Part shown: positions 31,594-38,050 of the stretch, piece by piece
How the letters are laid out: the number at the start of each line of letters is the position of its first letter
How positions within the stretch are numbered: position 1 is the stretch's first letter
Virus record (IMG/VR): IMGVR_UViG_3300005466_000008
Coordinates: 1 to 56,725 of that record
From: a virus
Strand: one strand, 5' to 3'
Length of the DNA stretch: 56,725 nucleotides
Notes under the pieces: generated by a model
Database searches by the model: none
Told to the model about the DNA's origin: nothing
What the model saw: only the letters and a program-made list of their open reading frames with translations
Position numbers and translations under genes: made by a program

Positions 31594-31778
31594 AGTGTGT
31601 ACGCCAGGATGACAACTACGCCACCGAAGAAACCGATGACGAGGAGAATCGCGCCGAAGATGAAGCCACCGATCCCTTTCTCCAACTTCGGGTCTTTCCA
31701 TCCGCTGGCGAATGAGACCAGGGCGCAGATTGCCCCGATCACGATCAGCACTACGCAGGCGATCAGCCATTCCTTCAT
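31590..31778 (-). CDS. Two-helix membrane protein (62 aa)
   Basis: Two membrane segments (about 4-24 and 35-60, ILLVIGFFGGVVVILAY) are joined by a short charged loop. It overlaps the polymerase stop and the nuclease start. A membrane protein embedded in a replication operon is unusual. Function is unknown. Confidence 0.6.
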   Translation of the reverse strand: MKEWLIACVVLIVIGAICALVSFASGWKDPKLEKGIGGFIFGAILLVIGFFGGVVVILAYTL

Positions 31779-34423
31779 GAGGACACCATCACATTCTGCT
31801 CAAGCCATTCCGTCAGCAGCACGTTATCCTTCTCCGTCCAGCCCAACAACTCGGCCGGTACTTCCTTGGCTTGACCCCATCGGGTACCAACCTTGCAGTC
31901 TGCAATTATCGGGATGTCTACGGCCACGTTAAAGAGCTCCTCGAGCGGCAGGTTCTCCATCGTGTCCTTGATGATGGGCAGCGCGTACGTCAACGCCGAT
32001 CCGTGGATCTCCCAGTTCACCGCGTCATGTACCGTACCGATCGGGTACGCCTCTACACCTTCTCTACGGAATCGCTTGGCTAGCAACACCATCGACAGCG
32101 CGCACATGTCCGAGGCGAACCCCTGGACTGGTGAGTTAATGGCCTGGCGCTCGGCTTCCGCCTGAACACCCTGATCTGGCGAGTAGATGTCGGGCAGGTG
32201 CCGGACGCGCCCCATCGGGGTCTCGACTCGCCCGTACTTGTGCGCCAGGGATCGCTGCTTCGCATGCCAGGGCAACAGCCCGGGGAACTGCGCGAAGAAC
32301 GCCTTCCGGAATGCTTGCGCCTCTTCCTCGGTGACACGCACCCCGTAGTTCTCCCAGGCGGTCATAACGAACTTGCGCCAACCCATGCCATACAGGAAGC
32401 CAAAGTTAACGGCCTTGGCCTTCTTCCGTTCCTCAGTCGTGACGCACTGACCACACCCGCACTTGCCGCCGTGCCATGGCTTTCCAGTCATCGTCATAGC
32501 CATGGTGGTGTGGATGTCTTGGCCGGTGTTGTAGAGGTGCATCATCGTCTGTTCACGCGCCAGCAATGCAGCGACGCGAAGCTCAACCTGTGAGTAGTCG
32601 AACTCGACGAAGTACGATCCGGGAGGTGCGCCGAACACCCCACGAGTCAGGTCACCGCGTGGAACCTGTTGCAGGTTCACACCCCGGATCTTCTTCTGGC
32701 CGGTGATCTTCTCCGCGTCTTCCTTGCCAGAAGACAAACGACCGGTCACCGTACCCCAGGGCTTGAACACGGAGTGCATGCGCGAGGTGGCATCGATTTG
32801 CTCGGACCAAGGCGAGAAGAATGAGGTGTCGAACTTGTTCCACTTCACGCGGTCAACGAGCAATCGGGCTACTTCTGCCCCGTTCGGATTACTCGGCTCT
32901 TCCGCCAGATAAGCCAGCGTCGCCTCATCCATGCTCGGCGCACCCGGCGTCCCATCATCCTTAGCCTTACCGCGTTTGAGTACCGGTAGACCAAGGTAAT
33001 CGTATAGGAACCATCGGGCGAAGTTAGACGCATTCCAGTTCACCCCAAACGACTTGATGTTCCCCGCCCTATCGTACTTGATGTACGGGTGCGTCTCCGG
33101 CACAAATTCGTCTAGCGCGTCGTGTAGATCCTCGAGCTTGGCCTTGACGATTCCCCAGTTCTTTTTCAACTGTGGTTCATCGACGAAGACACCACGACGC
33201 TCTACGTAGCATAGTTCTCTAACAAGAGGCATTGTGAGGTGTCGAAAAAACCGCGCCAGCCGAGGCTGATCGAGCAAGTTCTTCCGCAGCACGAAGAACA
33301 GCCGGAGCGTGTGCCAGGTATCTAGTCCGTTGTAATGCAGAACATCGACCAGCGGAGTGTTGAGCAAATCCTTCGTGTCGATGCCCCATGGCTCCGCCCC
33401 GAGCAACATCTGACCCAGTGGCTTCAAACCCTTCGGTCGATTCTCATCCAGCAGCGCCGCAGCAACGATCGTGTCGAAGGTGGGGACGAAGTCTTCTTCC
33501 CCGGTGAAGTGCTGCATCCACTTCGTGTCGTACTTCGCATTGTGTGCCACACGGCGCTTGCACTTCATCAGCGCCCGCGTGATGTGCCGGAGGACCGCGC
33601 GCCACTGTCGCCGGAACCACGACTCTGGGTGGTAGAGAGGCACGTTGTAGGTGTGGGCTGTTGTCATGTCGGGACCATCAGTCACCGTGACACTGATCGA
33701 TACCACGCGAGCGTCTGGTTCGTACTCAGCAGCGCCCGTCGTTTCGATGTCGTACGCACACGCCCATGCGTGCTGAACACGTCTTAGCATGGCTCTGAGA
33801 GCCTCTGAATCGCGTACCGTGGTCACGTGCCCGTCGTTGTTGTGGTGGTCGGGTTGCTCGCCCTGCCCCCGAATCAGTCGGCCGAAGTACTGGAGATCCG
33901 CGATGAAGCCACCACGCAAACCTGGGTTCCGATTGACAGCGCTTGGGCTGATAGTCGGGTAGATATACCCACCGCCCTCGGCGATGTTGAACAGCTTCCC
34001 CCGGTTCTTCGTGATGTCCGCCCAGCCAGAAGCGGCGAACCACGCCTCGCTACCTAGACACAGGACATAGTCAAAATCCATGAATGCGAACTCGGCCCGG
34101 AGGAACAGTGAGCACGTCTTCTGATCGGTCTTCGTCGGATCGAGACTATACGTCCGGCACTTCAATGCCGATAGCCACATGACCTGATGCGAATCGATAC
34201 CCGCCTCGGTCAGATACTCCACCATCTCCCGATGCATCTTGCCCCCGGGAGCAATGGGGAACTTGGTAACGATGGCTATCTTGGGCTTACCCTTGCTCTC
34301 GACCTGGCCGGTAATGCAGACCTCATCGTCCTCCGCATCTCGATGAAGTCGGCACTCGGTGCAACCTGCATTCCTAACGGCAAGCTCGAGGGCAGGGTGT
34401 CGTTTCAACTCAGGCCAACCCAT
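31775..34423 (-). CDS. Family A DNA polymerase with N-terminal degenerate UDG-like domain
   Basis: This 882-aa replicative polymerase has an N-terminal domain (about 1-190) that resembles family 4/5 uracil-DNA glycosylase. It keeps four Fe-S-type cysteines (C21, C24, C89, C104), but the catalytic motifs are altered: IVTKFPIAPGG replaces GEAPG, and SPSAVNR (159-165) replaces HPSxxxR. A 3'-5' exonuclease follows (DIET 225-228, HNAKYD, YNGLD). The polymerase core has motif A DYSQVELR at 609-616, motif B KAVNFGFLYG at about 670-679, and motif C VHDA at 798-801, where the usual Glu after HD is Ala. A CGCGQC knuckle is inserted in the fingers region. GTGGAGAA precedes the ATG. Confidence 0.9.
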   Translation of the reverse strand: MGWPELKRHPALELAVRNAGCTECRLHRDAEDDEVCITGQVESKGKPKIAIVTKFPIAPGGKMHREMVEYLTEAGIDSHQVMWLSALKCRTYSLDPTKTDQKTCSLFLRAEFAFMDFDYVLCLGSEAWFAASGWADITKNRGKLFNIAEGGGYIYPTISPSAVNRNPGLRGGFIADLQYFGRLIRGQGEQPDHHNNDGHVTTVRDSEALRAMLRRVQHAWACAYDIETTGAAEYEPDARVVSISVTVTDGPDMTTAHTYNVPLYHPESWFRRQWRAVLRHITRALMKCKRRVAHNAKYDTKWMQHFTGEEDFVPTFDTIVAAALLDENRPKGLKPLGQMLLGAEPWGIDTKDLLNTPLVDVLHYNGLDTWHTLRLFFVLRKNLLDQPRLARFFRHLTMPLVRELCYVERRGVFVDEPQLKKNWGIVKAKLEDLHDALDEFVPETHPYIKYDRAGNIKSFGVNWNASNFARWFLYDYLGLPVLKRGKAKDDGTPGAPSMDEATLAYLAEEPSNPNGAEVARLLVDRVKWNKFDTSFFSPWSEQIDATSRMHSVFKPWGTVTGRLSSGKEDAEKITGQKKIRGVNLQQVPRGDLTRGVFGAPPGSYFVEFDYSQVELRVAALLAREQTMMHLYNTGQDIHTTMAMTMTGKPWHGGKCGCGQCVTTEERKKAKAVNFGFLYGMGWRKFVMTAWENYGVRVTEEEAQAFRKAFFAQFPGLLPWHAKQRSLAHKYGRVETPMGRVRHLPDIYSPDQGVQAEAERQAINSPVQGFASDMCALSMVLLAKRFRREGVEAYPIGTVHDAVNWEIHGSALTYALPIIKDTMENLPLEELFNVAVDIPIIADCKVGTRWGQAKEVPAELLGWTEKDNVLLTEWLEQNVMVSS

Positions 34424-34881
34424 TTCTCCACGGTGATTCCAGCCTGGTTGAGAAGCTGGATACCTTCAACGTCACGGTATGCACGACCGTACATCACGCG
34501 GACGAGCCCGGCAGCGATGACGAGTTGGGAGCACGCGTAACACGGGCTGAGCGTCGTGTAGATGGTTCCGCCCTCGACGGAAACACCATTCCGCGCGCAG
34601 TAGGCAAGGGCATTGGCTTCCGCATGAATGGACACCCGGCAGCCATTCGACATGCCAACCTTGCCCGCCATCTGCTGACCAAGGGCAGACCGCAGATTCG
34701 GCGAGAACTCGATGACCTGATGCTCACAGTGGGGCATACCCGCCGGAGCGCCGTTGTATCCGGAGCCGAGCGTCCGGCCGTCCTTCGCGATGACCACACC
34801 AACGTGATTGCGCGAGCATGTACTGCGCTGCTCCCACATCTGCGCTATGCGCATCAGTGTCTCATCGACCGTAGGTCTCAC
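34405..34881 (-). CDS. Deoxycytidylate (dCMP) deaminase
   Basis: This 158-aa zinc enzyme converts dCMP to dUMP. It has the HAE motif at 86-88 and PCYAC (113-117, PCxxC), plus GYNGAPAGMPHCEH with extra zinc/allosteric residues. It belongs to the cytidine/dCMP deaminase family. The GTG start overlaps the stop of the synthase-like gene (GTGA). In T4-like phages the same enzyme feeds dTMP synthesis while dCMP is drawn into hydroxymethylation. Confidence 0.9.
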   Translation of the reverse strand: MRPTVDETLMRIAQMWEQRSTCSRNHVGVVIAKDGRTLGSGYNGAPAGMPHCEHQVIEFSPNLRSALGQQMAGKVGMSNGCRVSIHAEANALAYCARNGVSVEGGTIYTTLSPCYACSQLVIAAGLVRVMYGRAYRDVEGIQLLNQAGITVEKWVGLS

Positions 34882-35783
34882 ACCGCACCCCCGATGAAGT
34901 CGTCGTCCTGGTCGTAGTCCGAGACGAGTTTGATCCGGTTGAGGATATTCCTCTTATCGCCGGTGAATGCATGTAGGTTGGCGATGTGCATCACAAGCTT
35001 CCCCGGTCGGATCCCGAGTTGTATCGGTGCACGTTCGGTCCGACGCTTCAGCTCGGCACACACCCAGCGCATGAGAGCCACGGCGAAGTAAACGTCATTC
35101 GACAGGTGTCGATAGAAGTCGACGGATCTAATGTAGTAGCGCATCGAGAGATAACCACCGCGCTGCATGAAGTGATAGCCGAGCGTGCACGGCACTCGGT
35201 TCAGCTCGCCATGGCCGAACTTGGCCAGCTCGGGATCGTTGGCGAAGCCCGCCCCGGTGTCCTCGGGAAACCAGATTGGTAGATACGCTTGGCGCGTCAG
35301 CGGATTGCGCAGCAGGAGCGAGACCACGTCGTTCAGGTCACCGTAGTGGAAGCGGATACCCATCATCCCGGAACGGACTCTATTCTCCCCGATGGGCCAT
35401 CCAGCATGCTTCGGCCAGAACCGCTCCGGGTAGGTGTGGTCGAAGACCGAGTTCTGGTCAATGTGGTCGGCGTTCCCTCGCACCGCGTACGGCCAGCGCA
35501 AGTGTGAGGGCGAAGGATTCAAGGGCAAGCCGGACACCCGCTCGGCGAAATGCTCACGAGCCCAGGCAGTGTCTACAGCGGGGATCGCGCCAGAGGGGTC
35601 ATCCGGAACCTGGTCCCAGACGAGCGACACGTCTTCGAGCTCGTAAGTCTCATGCATCGAGCTGGTCCGCGTGTCCATCGCCTGCCACTCGCCGGTGTGG
35701 ACCGGCTTCTGTTCCAGCAGGTCGCTGGCCAGATGCAGATACGAGGGCCGAGGATTATCGATAGCCATATAGTAGACGTGCAT
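34878..35783 (-). CDS. Thymidylate-synthase-fold enzyme A, predicted dCMP hydroxymethylase
   Basis: This 301-aa protein aligns by eye with ThyA. It has RQAYLPIWFPED (Arg of the phosphate site), a catalytic Cys in VPCT (C199), GGYLSMRYYIRSVDF (R219, D222), then D230 at the position of E. coli ThyA N177 (L. casei N229), and HIANLHAF (H271). Asn-to-Asp at that position switches the substrate from dUMP to dCMP and is found in T4 dCMP hydroxymethylase. I therefore predict 5-hydroxymethyl-dCMP synthesis. It overlaps neighbours by 1-4 nt in a nucleotide-metabolism cassette. Confidence 0.75.
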   Translation of the reverse strand: MHVYYMAIDNPRPSYLHLASDLLEQKPVHTGEWQAMDTRTSSMHETYELEDVSLVWDQVPDDPSGAIPAVDTAWAREHFAERVSGLPLNPSPSHLRWPYAVRGNADHIDQNSVFDHTYPERFWPKHAGWPIGENRVRSGMMGIRFHYGDLNDVVSLLLRNPLTRQAYLPIWFPEDTGAGFANDPELAKFGHGELNRVPCTLGYHFMQRGGYLSMRYYIRSVDFYRHLSNDVYFAVALMRWVCAELKRRTERAPIQLGIRPGKLVMHIANLHAFTGDKRNILNRIKLVSDYDQDDDFIGGAV

Positions 35784-36001
35784 TACTTATTGTCCTCCTC
35801 AATCAATCCCTCGCGGACGAGGACTCCACGAAGAGACATTGATGTACGCGCGTGGCTTTGGGCCAACTGGGCCAATATCTGCTGTGCTCCTACGTAATCG
35901 TCAAGCTCGAGCGCCAGATAAGCCTGTCGATATTTGTCTTCGATGCGTTTCATAAATGCTTCGAAGTTCTTCATCATGAGGGCTTTCTTGCGCTTATCCA
36001 T
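35783..36001 (-). CDS. Small protein between two synthase paralogues
   Basis: This 72-aa, highly charged helical protein (KALMMKNFEAFMKRIEDKYRQ is split by charge; LDDYVGAQQILAQLAQSHA) is coupled to both synthase-like genes by TGATG and TAATG. It may be a subunit or regulator of that pair, inferred only from position. Confidence 0.55.
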   Translation of the reverse strand: MDKRKKALMMKNFEAFMKRIEDKYRQAYLALELDDYVGAQQILAQLAQSHARTSMSLRGVLVREGLIEEDNK

Positions 36002-36987
36002 CAGTCCTCGTCCTCGTCCAGCGGCAAGTTCTCATCGTGGTCGAAGTACGAGTCGTCACCATCCCGACCGGCCAGCGGTTTGCGGAGACCCAGGTCCCGT
36101 ACCCAGTTGTCGGGCAGTGGAGGGAACGCACCCTTGCCGCCTCGATTACGCACACCTCCGGCGAACTGATCGGCGTAGTCAACCCCATACGCCTCAGTGT
36201 GAAAGCGCCGCCGGACGCGAGCGAACGAGGAGAACGACTCATCACCATAGAGCGTCCCCGCTCGATCGGACTTCAGAATCCGAGCGTAGCCATCGAGACA
36301 CTTCCGGTATCCGGGCTGCTCTTTTGGTGAGAACGACATCCGGTTGTCTACATCCTCATCCATCTGCTTCCGAATATCAGGATCCATCAGCATCCACGCC
36401 AGCGATCGGAAGCCGTGGAACTGTGCAAGCTCGAGGGTCCACACAAACTGGACGTCATCCAGATCGTAGCCGCAGATGTCCGCCGCTTCCGCAGCGAAGG
36501 CACGAGCTACGGCCATGTCCACCATTGCCAGGTAACCAAAGTACGTTGTCCGGCTGTGCAGCGAGACCGTGGGGATCGGCGTAGCGCGGAAGCTCAGGGA
36601 CAGCATGCAAGACCCCCAGCGACGCCGGACACCCCGACCGACCCCCCGACCCTGTACGAGCCGCGTACGGAGCACTGAGATACCTCTACGGTCCCCCCTG
36701 GTACGTGGGGGTGCCATCCGGTCAGCGATCTTAGCCATGCAATCGTTGAGGGCGATCGGGTCGAGGTACTGCCGAACCATCATGGTCCAACGAGTCGGTG
36801 GAACCCAGAGACGTTTCAGGTTGTAGTCGAAGGCGATAGAGTCGCAGTGAATGGCGACATTGTGCAGACCTACCTCCGTGCCGTGCACGAAGTCCCAGTC
36901 CGTTCCCCCATTGTCCCCGTACACTAGCTGCTCGCACATCGCCTCGTGAGCCGCGACAGGGTTGGGGAAGCTGAACGACCGGATCAT
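36001..36987 (-). CDS. Thymidylate-synthase-fold protein B, divergent paralogue
   Basis: This 328-aa protein shows a weaker but clear ThyA core: SC at the nucleophile (C127, in RRWGSCM), SLHSRTTYF (R146), D157 at the Asn177-equivalent position, and FVWT (181-184) followed by H191. The Asp of the RSxD motif is replaced by Tyr. An Arg/Gly-rich stretch precedes the Cys, and an acidic tail ends the protein. It could be a second hydroxymethylase, a partner of A, or act on a modified nucleotide. GGACTGATG coupling links it to the next gene. Confidence 0.6.
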   Translation of the reverse strand: MIRSFSFPNPVAAHEAMCEQLVYGDNGGTDWDFVHGTEVGLHNVAIHCDSIAFDYNLKRLWVPPTRWTMMVRQYLDPIALNDCMAKIADRMAPPRTRGDRRGISVLRTRLVQGRGVGRGVRRRWGSCMLSLSFRATPIPTVSLHSRTTYFGYLAMVDMAVARAFAAEAADICGYDLDDVQFVWTLELAQFHGFRSLAWMLMDPDIRKQMDEDVDNRMSFSPKEQPGYRKCLDGYARILKSDRAGTLYGDESFSSFARVRRRFHTEAYGVDYADQFAGGVRNRGGKGAFPPLPDNWVRDLGLRKPLAGRDGDDSYFDHDENLPLDEDED

Positions 36988-37493
36988 CGGACGAACTCGC
37001 CGGACATCTCACAGAATGGCAGAACGGGTAGGGATCCCGTTTCCTCGGCAGACACCGCCGGATAGCACTTGACGTCCTCATCGTCATACGCTCGACGACA
37101 GGCCGGGCACTTGGTAGACTTCGCATCGTAGCCTTCGGTCCACCGCCGGAGGTTCTTCGTCTGCTTATCATCCACGGCCTGAAAAAGTTCTGTGGTCGTT
37201 ACTCCACCAGCTAGCATCAAGTTCATGAAGAAGATGTAAACATCCGCCAGTTCCCCGATGTACCGCTGCTTGCTGATAACCACCGGCTCTCCATCTGGGC
37301 GAACAGCCCATGGCTTCCAGTGGGTTTCCTCCACCGCCTCGTACGTCTCGCCGATCATCGCGAAAGCCTGGTCCCGGATATATTGCGAGAGCGCATCGGG
37401 ATCCATGTCGTCCACACGTCGGGCCAGCAGGAACGCTTGCAAATCGGCCTGCCGCTGGAGCAGCCGCGTTGCGCGGGGGTCGAGAGTCACCAT
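36984..37493 (-). CDS. MazG/dimeric dUTPase-like NTP pyrophosphatase with zinc tail
   Basis: This 169-aa all-helical protein has the dUTPase-2/MazG metal-binding layout: IGETYEAVEETHWKPW (E..E E) and YIGELADVYIFFMNLML (E..D). T4 gp56 (dCTPase/dUTPase) performs this job and keeps unmodified dCTP out of DNA. A C-terminal Cys cluster (CPACRRAYDDEDVKC...C) probably binds zinc. ATG at 37493 has GGAG upstream; ATG at 37511 is the coupled alternative. Confidence 0.75.
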   Translation of the reverse strand: MVTLDPRATRLLQRQADLQAFLLARRVDDMDPDALSQYIRDQAFAMIGETYEAVEETHWKPWAVRPDGEPVVISKQRYIGELADVYIFFMNLMLAGGVTTTELFQAVDDKQTKNLRRWTEGYDAKSTKCPACRRAYDDEDVKCYPAVSAEETGSLPVLPFCEMSGEFVR

Positions 37494-37510
37494 GATTACT
37501 CCGTCTTCCA

Positions 37511-38050
37511 TTACATGTTCTCCAGAGTCTTGATCAGATCCTGTCTGGTCTCGCGTGTCCGGTCGTACCGGATCACCGTACCGGGCCAGCGGAGTGTGTT
37601 GTATCGCGTCCAGATGGAGTACCGGTTCTCGAACACACCGGGCATGTGCGCTTCTCGTCCCTGCGTCTGAAGAACGCGCTCGACCTCCTCATACGGAGGG
37701 CAGCAGATGATGAGAATGGACATCGACCCCATATCCTTCGTGACGGAACGCATCCAGTTCTCGTCACCAAAGCCTTCGGACATCCCCGGGTTCACCCAGC
37801 GGTAGTTGGCGTAGATGGGTTCGCTGATCAGGGGGTGGCGGTCGTAGATGTATGTCGGATGACCCGAGTCCAATTCCAACTCGTCCAGATGATCCAGGTC
37901 TCGATCCACCCAGCCGCGCAAGTTCTTGACCGGTCCGGTCATGCTGTCGCTGGCACGAGGATGCCTGACTAGATCGAAGTACTCTGCCAACACCCCGATG
38001 AGACCAGTCTTACCCGAGCCGTCGCATCCCTCGACGATGATGTGCTTCAT
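37511..38050 (-). CDS. Deoxynucleoside monophosphate kinase (P-loop)
   Basis: This 179-aa protein has GCDGSGKT (P-loop, residues 8-15), a DRHPLISEP lid/base-contact segment, and the ILIICCPP strand of thymidylate-kinase-like enzymes. It would phosphorylate a dNMP to dNDP. In the context of a predicted hmdCMP pathway, it is the natural candidate to activate the modified nucleotide (compare T4 gp1), although ordinary dTMP is also possible. Confidence 0.78.
   Translation of the reverse strand: MKHIIVEGCDGSGKTGLIGVLAEYFDLVRHPRASDSMTGPVKNLRGWVDRDLDHLDELELDSGHPTYIYDRHPLISEPIYANYRWVNPGMSEGFGDENWMRSVTKDMGSMSILIICCPPYEEVERVLQTQGREAHMPGVFENRYSIWTRYNTLRWPGTVIRYDRTRETRQDLIKTLENM

Follow-up and report, generated by a model that had tools for sequence, protein, structure and literature searches.

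A conserved phage gene cassette with two thymidylate synthase-fold proteins and a probable role in cytosine-nucleotide modification

A 56.7-kb viral contig from IMG/VR (record IMGVR_UViG_3300005466_000008, positions 1 to 56,725; "the window" below) carries a set of five enzyme genes that, in our judgment, probably modifies cytosine nucleotides at C5 of deoxycytidine monophosphate (dCMP) and acts before replication. The set encodes (i) a nucleoside monophosphate (NMP) kinase, (ii) a MazG/dUTPase-like pyrophosphatase, (iii and iv) two proteins of the thymidylate synthase (TS) fold, here called B and A, and (v) a dCMP deaminase. An initial annotation of the locus had placed and called these five coupled genes correctly and had read them as a cytosine-hydroxymethylation pathway; it did not mention a sixth open reading frame (ORF), of 72 amino acids, between A and B. 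The order from 5′ to 3′ on the minus strand is kinase, pyrophosphatase, B, 72-amino-acid ORF, A, deaminase (Table 1). Related public phage records are mainly those of actinophages, and the host of this virus is a bacterium, most likely an actinobacterium.

The cassette is conserved as a unit. Profile searches of IMG/VR returned 53 loci for B and more than 450 candidate loci for A. Of 52 viral contigs with B, 40 keep the order kinase, pyrophosphatase, B, A, deaminase, an arrangement far beyond chance, and most of the remaining contigs are short of a recognizable pyrophosphatase only. Among the 68 B loci, 66 have A next to B, and the other two are cut by contig ends. B is absent from 29 of the 80 A loci, and these nearly always lack the pyrophosphatase, kinase and deaminase as well. 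The order spans host phyla, with recognizable versions in phages of Gordonia, Mycobacterium, Streptomyces, Microbacterium, Serratia, Pseudomonas, Yersinia and Brevundimonas. The arrangement is identical or very similar in Serratia phage Serbin, Pseudomonas phage PMBT14, Brevundimonas phage Polewnik, Yersinia phage P744 and others, where a very divergent protein takes the place of B. This protein is a B homolog by profile comparison (94-96%) and, for PMBT14, also by structure (Foldseek E 2.4e-6); two records label it "pyrimidine hmase synthase."

Individual records add some detail. Mycobacterium phage Muddy (gp47 and gp46; L025 8072-9741) has A, B, the kinase and the pyrophosphatase; matches to A and B also occur in its relatives FF47, Maco and NoShow. 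Contigs with A but no B include L110 (5823-7723), L122, L142 and L157, some of them up to 250 kb. In L110, A lies beside a protein resembling inosine monophosphate dehydrogenase/GMP reductase, and DUF6734 proteins occur near A in both L110 and L157. The A proteins of such B-less contigs often have Trp at the Tyr209 position.

Protein A is a TS homolog. Its profile matched TS references at 99.2% (hhalign, E 2.3e-19), a Foldseek structure search returned TS and MilA matches with E values down to 7e-10, and, of 39 records with A, 25 exceeded the curated cut-off of PF00303 (two canonical TS genes counted in). Among 104 homologs, the equivalents of TS Tyr94, Arg126, Cys146, Arg166 and His207 are invariant, Asp169 is kept in 102, and position 147 is Thr or Ser. 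D230 of A lies opposite N177 of E. coli ThyA, a pairing that the initial annotation had made by eye and that our independent alignment confirmed; it is Asp in all 104 homologs. Asp at this position selects cytosine in T4 gp42 (Asp179) and in MilA (Asp186) (PMC5175136), and in the MetaGPA study the strongest links to cytosine-modified phage contigs were those of positions 177 and 147 (PMC8670742). Ser220 and Arg164 of A, at the sites of TS Ser167 and Arg126, are the deoxyribose-preferring states (PMC5175136) of residues that are changed in MilA. Taken together, Asp177, Thr/Ser147 and Ser220/Arg164 indicate that A should use dCMP, a specificity that is well supported by these sequence features. 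Since Asp is conserved in 104 of 104 A and 85 of 85 B proteins, we reject a chance origin of the two Asp residues.

The strongest rival to cytosine modification is plain supply of deoxythymidine triphosphate (dTTP). The deaminase and a dUTPase would yield deoxyuridine monophosphate (dUMP), A would methylate it, the kinase would be a thymidylate kinase and B an accessory protein. All four enzymes are so annotated in Gordonia and Mycobacterium phages, where A is called a thymidylate synthase and B a hypothetical protein, and a canonical TS is absent from 37 of 39 records. The pyrophosphatase, whose metal motif ExxE..ExxD (E55, E58, E87, D90) is invariant, belongs with T4 gp56 dCTPase/dUTPase (hhalign 99%, E 2e-18) and is equally a homolog of plain dUTPases (Campylobacter jejuni dUTPase 1w2y, E 2.7e-9). 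The kinase, with P-loop residues G8, D10, G11, G13 and K14 and also R71 invariant in its relatives, matches thymidylate kinases: the closest among the phage kinases compared is the RB69 ORF045 "thymidylate kinase" (hhalign 95%), which sits beside the RB69 ORF048 dCMP hydroxylase. T4 gp1 (3%) shows no detectable relation to it. The proposal that the set mirrors T4 cd, 42, 56 and 1 thus holds for the T4-like supporting set and the gp56 homology but not for the kinase. What speaks against dTTP supply lies in A: the dUMP-selecting Asn is replaced by Asp throughout, and the TS C-terminal tail is missing. In addition, Microbacterium phage Triscuit and another contig carry both A and a canonical TS, which means that A does not simply serve as the phage's TS; in Triscuit the canonical enzyme (Asn177; L026 11281-12078) directly follows A. 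We regard plain dTTP supply as improbable.

For protein B, a sequence-only search against the PDB gave chance matches only (colicin E7, E 0.24 and worse) and a single-sequence Pfam/NCBIfam search found nothing relevant; the fold emerged only from structure prediction. The AlphaFold2 model (predicted local distance difference test score 84.5, predicted TM-score 0.84; residues 113-125 of low confidence) matched MilA best in the PDB (Foldseek E 1e-6), followed by the phage dCMP hydroxylase 9iqu (3.6e-6) and T4 dCMP hydroxymethylase. All 16 PDB matches at E<0.001 were TS, MilA, dCMP hydroxymethylase or the dCMP hydroxylase AfhB, and the BFVD viral structure library returned Acj9 gp42 (1.9e-6). Because the TM-scores of these matches are modest (0.3-0.6), the fold of B is a divergent version of TS. 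Profile comparison with TS gave 23% (hhalign) with proteobacterial B proteins added and 4-6% without them, which is weak but above non-TS controls and in the correct register. It places C127, R146 and D157 opposite TS C146, R166 and N177. The TS fold and the Asp, rather than Asn, at the N177 site that had been proposed for both proteins were therefore borne out, for B through a weak profile match.

We compared 85 very divergent B sequences, 78 from actinophages and 7 of the proteobacterial type. Tyr74, Cys127, Arg146 and Asp157 are the only invariant residues among the conserved positions that we examined, as expected of an active enzyme. The His207/Tyr209 equivalents (H191, F193) are retained in most actinophage B proteins and lost in proteobacterial ones. 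Judged by the order of secondary structures, B lacks the TS stretch that bears W80, W83 and Y94: its first core helix (64-74) runs straight into the helix (77-90) preceding the Arg strand. We found no acidic residue in B that corresponds to Glu58; residues 71/72 are V/R. The missing folate-site segment and Glu58 counterpart suggest that B does not use methylene-tetrahydrofolate. B is thus probably an active, folate-independent, cytosine-directed enzyme, to judge from its sequence and model, and the earlier view of it as another synthase like A was not supported.

B also has an extra helical C-terminal domain of ~100 residues, in which a RxRxRxHxE motif (residues 241-275) is strongly conserved, and in most B proteins of actinophages the C-terminus is an acidic tail. 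The Arg-rich middle of B (residues 94-125) raised the possibility of a frameshift or pseudogene, which we rejected because relatives share the frame.

A different role for B would be structural. TS enzymes are dimers that share active sites between subunits and B is an obligate neighbor of A, so the two could form one heterodimeric enzyme in which B gives A phosphate-binding arginines and structural support. Yet A stands without B in the 29 loci noted above, and the candidate phosphate residue of B, Arg101, is not kept in proteobacterial B proteins while the Cys and Asp are invariant. We therefore think a heterodimer unlikely.

What A makes is a separate question from what it binds. The defining feature of pyrimidine hydroxymethylases is a water-activating acid at the third position ahead of the catalytic Cys (T4 gp42 Asp145), and D145N in T4 gp42 abolishes product formation (PMC6400193). 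This residue is Asp in MilA and SPO1 gp29 and Glu in the RB69/HY126 dCMP hydroxylase. In A it is Arg (RVPC) in 105 of 105 homologs, the sole exception in the tally being Triscuit's canonical TS. The hydroxymethyl product named in the initial annotation is therefore not supported, and hydroxymethylation by A is not established by these sequences. Other features of A can be set against those of T4 gp42. Like gp42, A has no TS C-terminal tail and ends 12-35 residues past the His207 equivalent. In its His116-Thr117-Tyr118 segment the Tyr is invariant and the Thr immediately precedes it, whereas the Ser of gp42 lies two residues before (Ser94-x-Tyr96). E81 is invariant and a plausible catalytic Glu (Glu58/Glu60), but hhalign does not set it opposite Glu58. 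Dihydrofolate reductase (DHFR; PF00186) was not found over cut-off in any of the 39 cassette-bearing records, as expected if dihydrofolate is not produced.

In Xanthomonas phage Xp12, all cytosine is replaced by 5-methylcytosine (5mC). A could likewise make 5-methyl-dCMP, part of which the deaminase would turn into deoxythymidine monophosphate (dTMP). The TS of a phage of the Xp12 genus also has Asp at 177, A lacks the hydroxymethylase acid, and TS Asn-to-Asp mutants methylate dCMP (as cited in PMC8670742). On the other side, the missing tail serves cofactor closure and hydride transfer in TS, and the enzyme of the Bosavirus phages (the Xp12 genus) retains a long C-terminal part. A tail-less A together with the absence of DHFR is a mild argument against methylation, which we consider quite improbable. 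By analogy with the family, 5-hydroxymethyl would still be the single likeliest product of A. Very unlikely, finally, is that A, B or both are flavin-dependent dCMP C5-hydroxylases of the RB69 ORF048/HY126 AfhB type that make 5-hydroxycytosine: AfhB (PDB 9iqu and 9iqc, by entry titles) ranks second among the fold matches to B, matches A by profile (E 0.0025) and shares Cys-Thr, Asp177 and HxFxxD with A, and the cassette kinase is closest to the one beside RB69 ORF048, but AfhB has Glu where A has Arg, the fold similarity to MilA is equally high, and the cofactor is not readable from sequence.

Several points weigh against a cytosine-modifying cassette. By the acid signature, A would fall outside the pyrimidine hydroxymethylases. 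At the profile level B resembles TS weakly, though better than the controls do, and each supporting gene is also compatible with plain dTTP supply. In agreement with the initial annotation, no glycosyltransferase was recognized in the scanned genes of the window, nor in the whole record with PF00534; the window yielded no carbamoyltransferase either. Glycosyltransferases (PF00535, PF00534) and carbamoyltransferase (PF16861) were likewise not found over cut-off in 38-39 cassette-bearing records, except in Zuko, a larger Streptomyces phage with a family 2 glycosyltransferase far from the cassette; among these families, no downstream hypermodifying enzyme was recognized. We also found no base-composition or liquid chromatography-mass spectrometry data for cassette-bearing phages in the literature.

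We still favor modification of cytosine nucleotides, and from the folds, residues, gene order and co-occurrence we infer the following course. Cys199 of A would attack C6 of dCMP, and a one-carbon unit from methylene-tetrahydrofolate would be added at C5. The exocyclic methylene so formed would most likely be quenched to 5-hydroxymethyl-dCMP. B would then act on the same base or on the product base through Cys127 and Asp157 without folate, for example by swapping the hydroxyl of hydroxymethylcytosine for another nucleophile. One specific version, possible but doubtful, is that B eliminates the hydroxyl of 5-hydroxymethyl-dC(MP) via Cys127 and regenerates the exocyclic methylene for another nucleophile, such that A and B together would yield a hitherto unknown 5-substituted-methyl cytosine without a glycosyltransferase. 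The kinase and host enzymes would raise the modified nucleotide to the triphosphate, the pyrophosphatase would remove dCTP and dUTP, and the deaminase would divert dCMP to dUMP and dTMP. Incorporation of the modified base by the phage polymerase would shield the DNA from host restriction.

The features of the locus are collected in Table 1. Profile scans with Pfam, NCBIfam and PHROG gave no family match for the 72-amino-acid ORF. Downstream of the deaminase lie, as the next gene of this module, a family A DNA polymerase with a uracil-DNA glycosylase (UDG)-like N-terminus, then a PD-(D/E)XK exonuclease and a Sak4-like protein. A UDG match occurs in 36 of the 39 cassette-bearing records, generally within a polymerase-sized open frame; in the window, the usual motifs of this domain look degenerate by eye.

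Table 1. Features of the cassette locus (all on the minus strand; positions are those of the window)
Feature	Position	Strand	Match or conservation
Six co-directional ORFs, neighbors overlapping by 1 or 4 bases	34405-38050	-	
NMP kinase, P-loop, thymidylate-kinase-like, 179 aa, first cassette gene	37511-38050	-	phrog_761 (thymidylate kinase) 5.7e-9
All-alpha NTP pyrophosphatase, dUTPase_2/T4 gp56 dCTPase family, 175 aa	36984-37511	-	phrog_18650 (dUTPase) 6e-24
Protein B, divergent TS-superfamily protein, 328 aa	36001-36987	-	phrog_13667 (unknown function) 1e-78; predicted structure
B Tyr74 codon	36766-36768	-	Invariant, 85/85
B Cys127 codon (TS Cys146 equivalent)	36607-36609	-	Invariant, 85/85
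B Arg146 codon (TS Arg166 equivalent)	36550-36552	-	Invariant, 85/85
B Asp157 codon (TS Asn177 equivalent)	36517-36519	-	Invariant, 85/85
72-aa ORF between A and B	35783-36001	-	Homologs in L003, L004, L005 (closest relatives) only
Protein A, TS homolog with dCMP-type active site, 301 aa	34878-35783	-	phrog_160 (TS) 1e-25
A Arg196 codon, Cys minus three (Asp145 in T4 gp42)	35196-35198	-	Arg in 105/105 A homologs
A Cys199 codon (TS nucleophile Cys146)	35187-35189	-	Invariant; next residue Thr/Ser as in T4 gp42
A Asp230 codon (TS Asn177, T4 gp42 Asp179)	35094-35096	-	Asp in 104/104 homologs
dCMP deaminase, 158 aa	34405-34881	-	PF00383 1.5e-21; phrog_174 2.8e-52; HAE and PCxxC zinc motifs intact
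Family A DNA polymerase with N-terminal UDG-like domain	31775-34423	-	PF00476 1.6e-65; PF03167 1.1e-8

The dCMP-type TS enzymes with helper genes were already known from T4, RB69 and Xp12. Two points are new. A has an invariant Arg in place of the hydroxymethylase acid and so puts to the test whether pyrimidine hydroxymethylases truly require the accepted acid signature, and B is recognized as a TS-fold companion of wide occurrence that lacks the folate site and fits no known reaction of the TS family. As its sequence and model suggest, B would add an unrecognized branch of the TS superfamily that keeps the cytosine chemistry but not the folate site. Many cultured phages contain the cassette, Gordonia phages and Muddy among them, and Muddy has been used in phage therapy of Mycobacterium abscessus infection. 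If virion cytosine is modified in cultured cassette-bearing phages, this would bear on their restriction, sequencing and engineering.

Among known systems, T4 (gp42 with gp56, cd and gp1) shares with A the TS fold, Cys-Thr, Asp at 177 and the tail-less C-terminus, and with the cassette a gp56-family pyrophosphatase and a dCMP deaminase. It differs in the catalytic Asp145 of gp42, which is Arg in A, in having no counterpart of the extra protein B, in its kinase and in its glucosyltransferases, none of which is recognizable here. The cytidine monophosphate hydroxymethylases MilA/BcmA rank first or nearly so for A and B alike, in profile as in fold comparisons, and have Asp at 177, but MilA has Asp at Cys-minus-three and Ala/Lys at the ribose-selecting sites, where A has Arg, Ser and Arg (dCMP type). 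The TS-fold dCMP hydroxylase RB69 ORF048/HY126 AfhB (PDB 9iqc, 9iqu, 9ir2) resembles A in Cys-Thr, Asp177, HxFxxD and an adjacent thymidylate-kinase-like gene; it differs in the Glu at Cys-minus-three (AfhB), in phage group and in gene set, and A and B may or may not share the flavin use of AfhB. SPO1 gp29, a dUMP hydroxymethylase, has the same Arg-Gln phosphate-binding pair as A, with Asn177 (uracil type) and Asp at Cys-minus-three. For Xp12, a Xanthomonas phage of the same genus stood in for the TS comparison. The TS of the Bosavirus phages, the genus to which Xp12 with its 5mC DNA belongs, shares Asp at 177 and an adjoining dCMP deaminase with the cassette but is canonical-TS-like, with Pro at 147, Asn at Cys-minus-three and a long C-terminal part; that of Xanthomonas phage DoCa10 (L029 44505-45389; Asp177, Pro147) is a candidate dCMP methylase.

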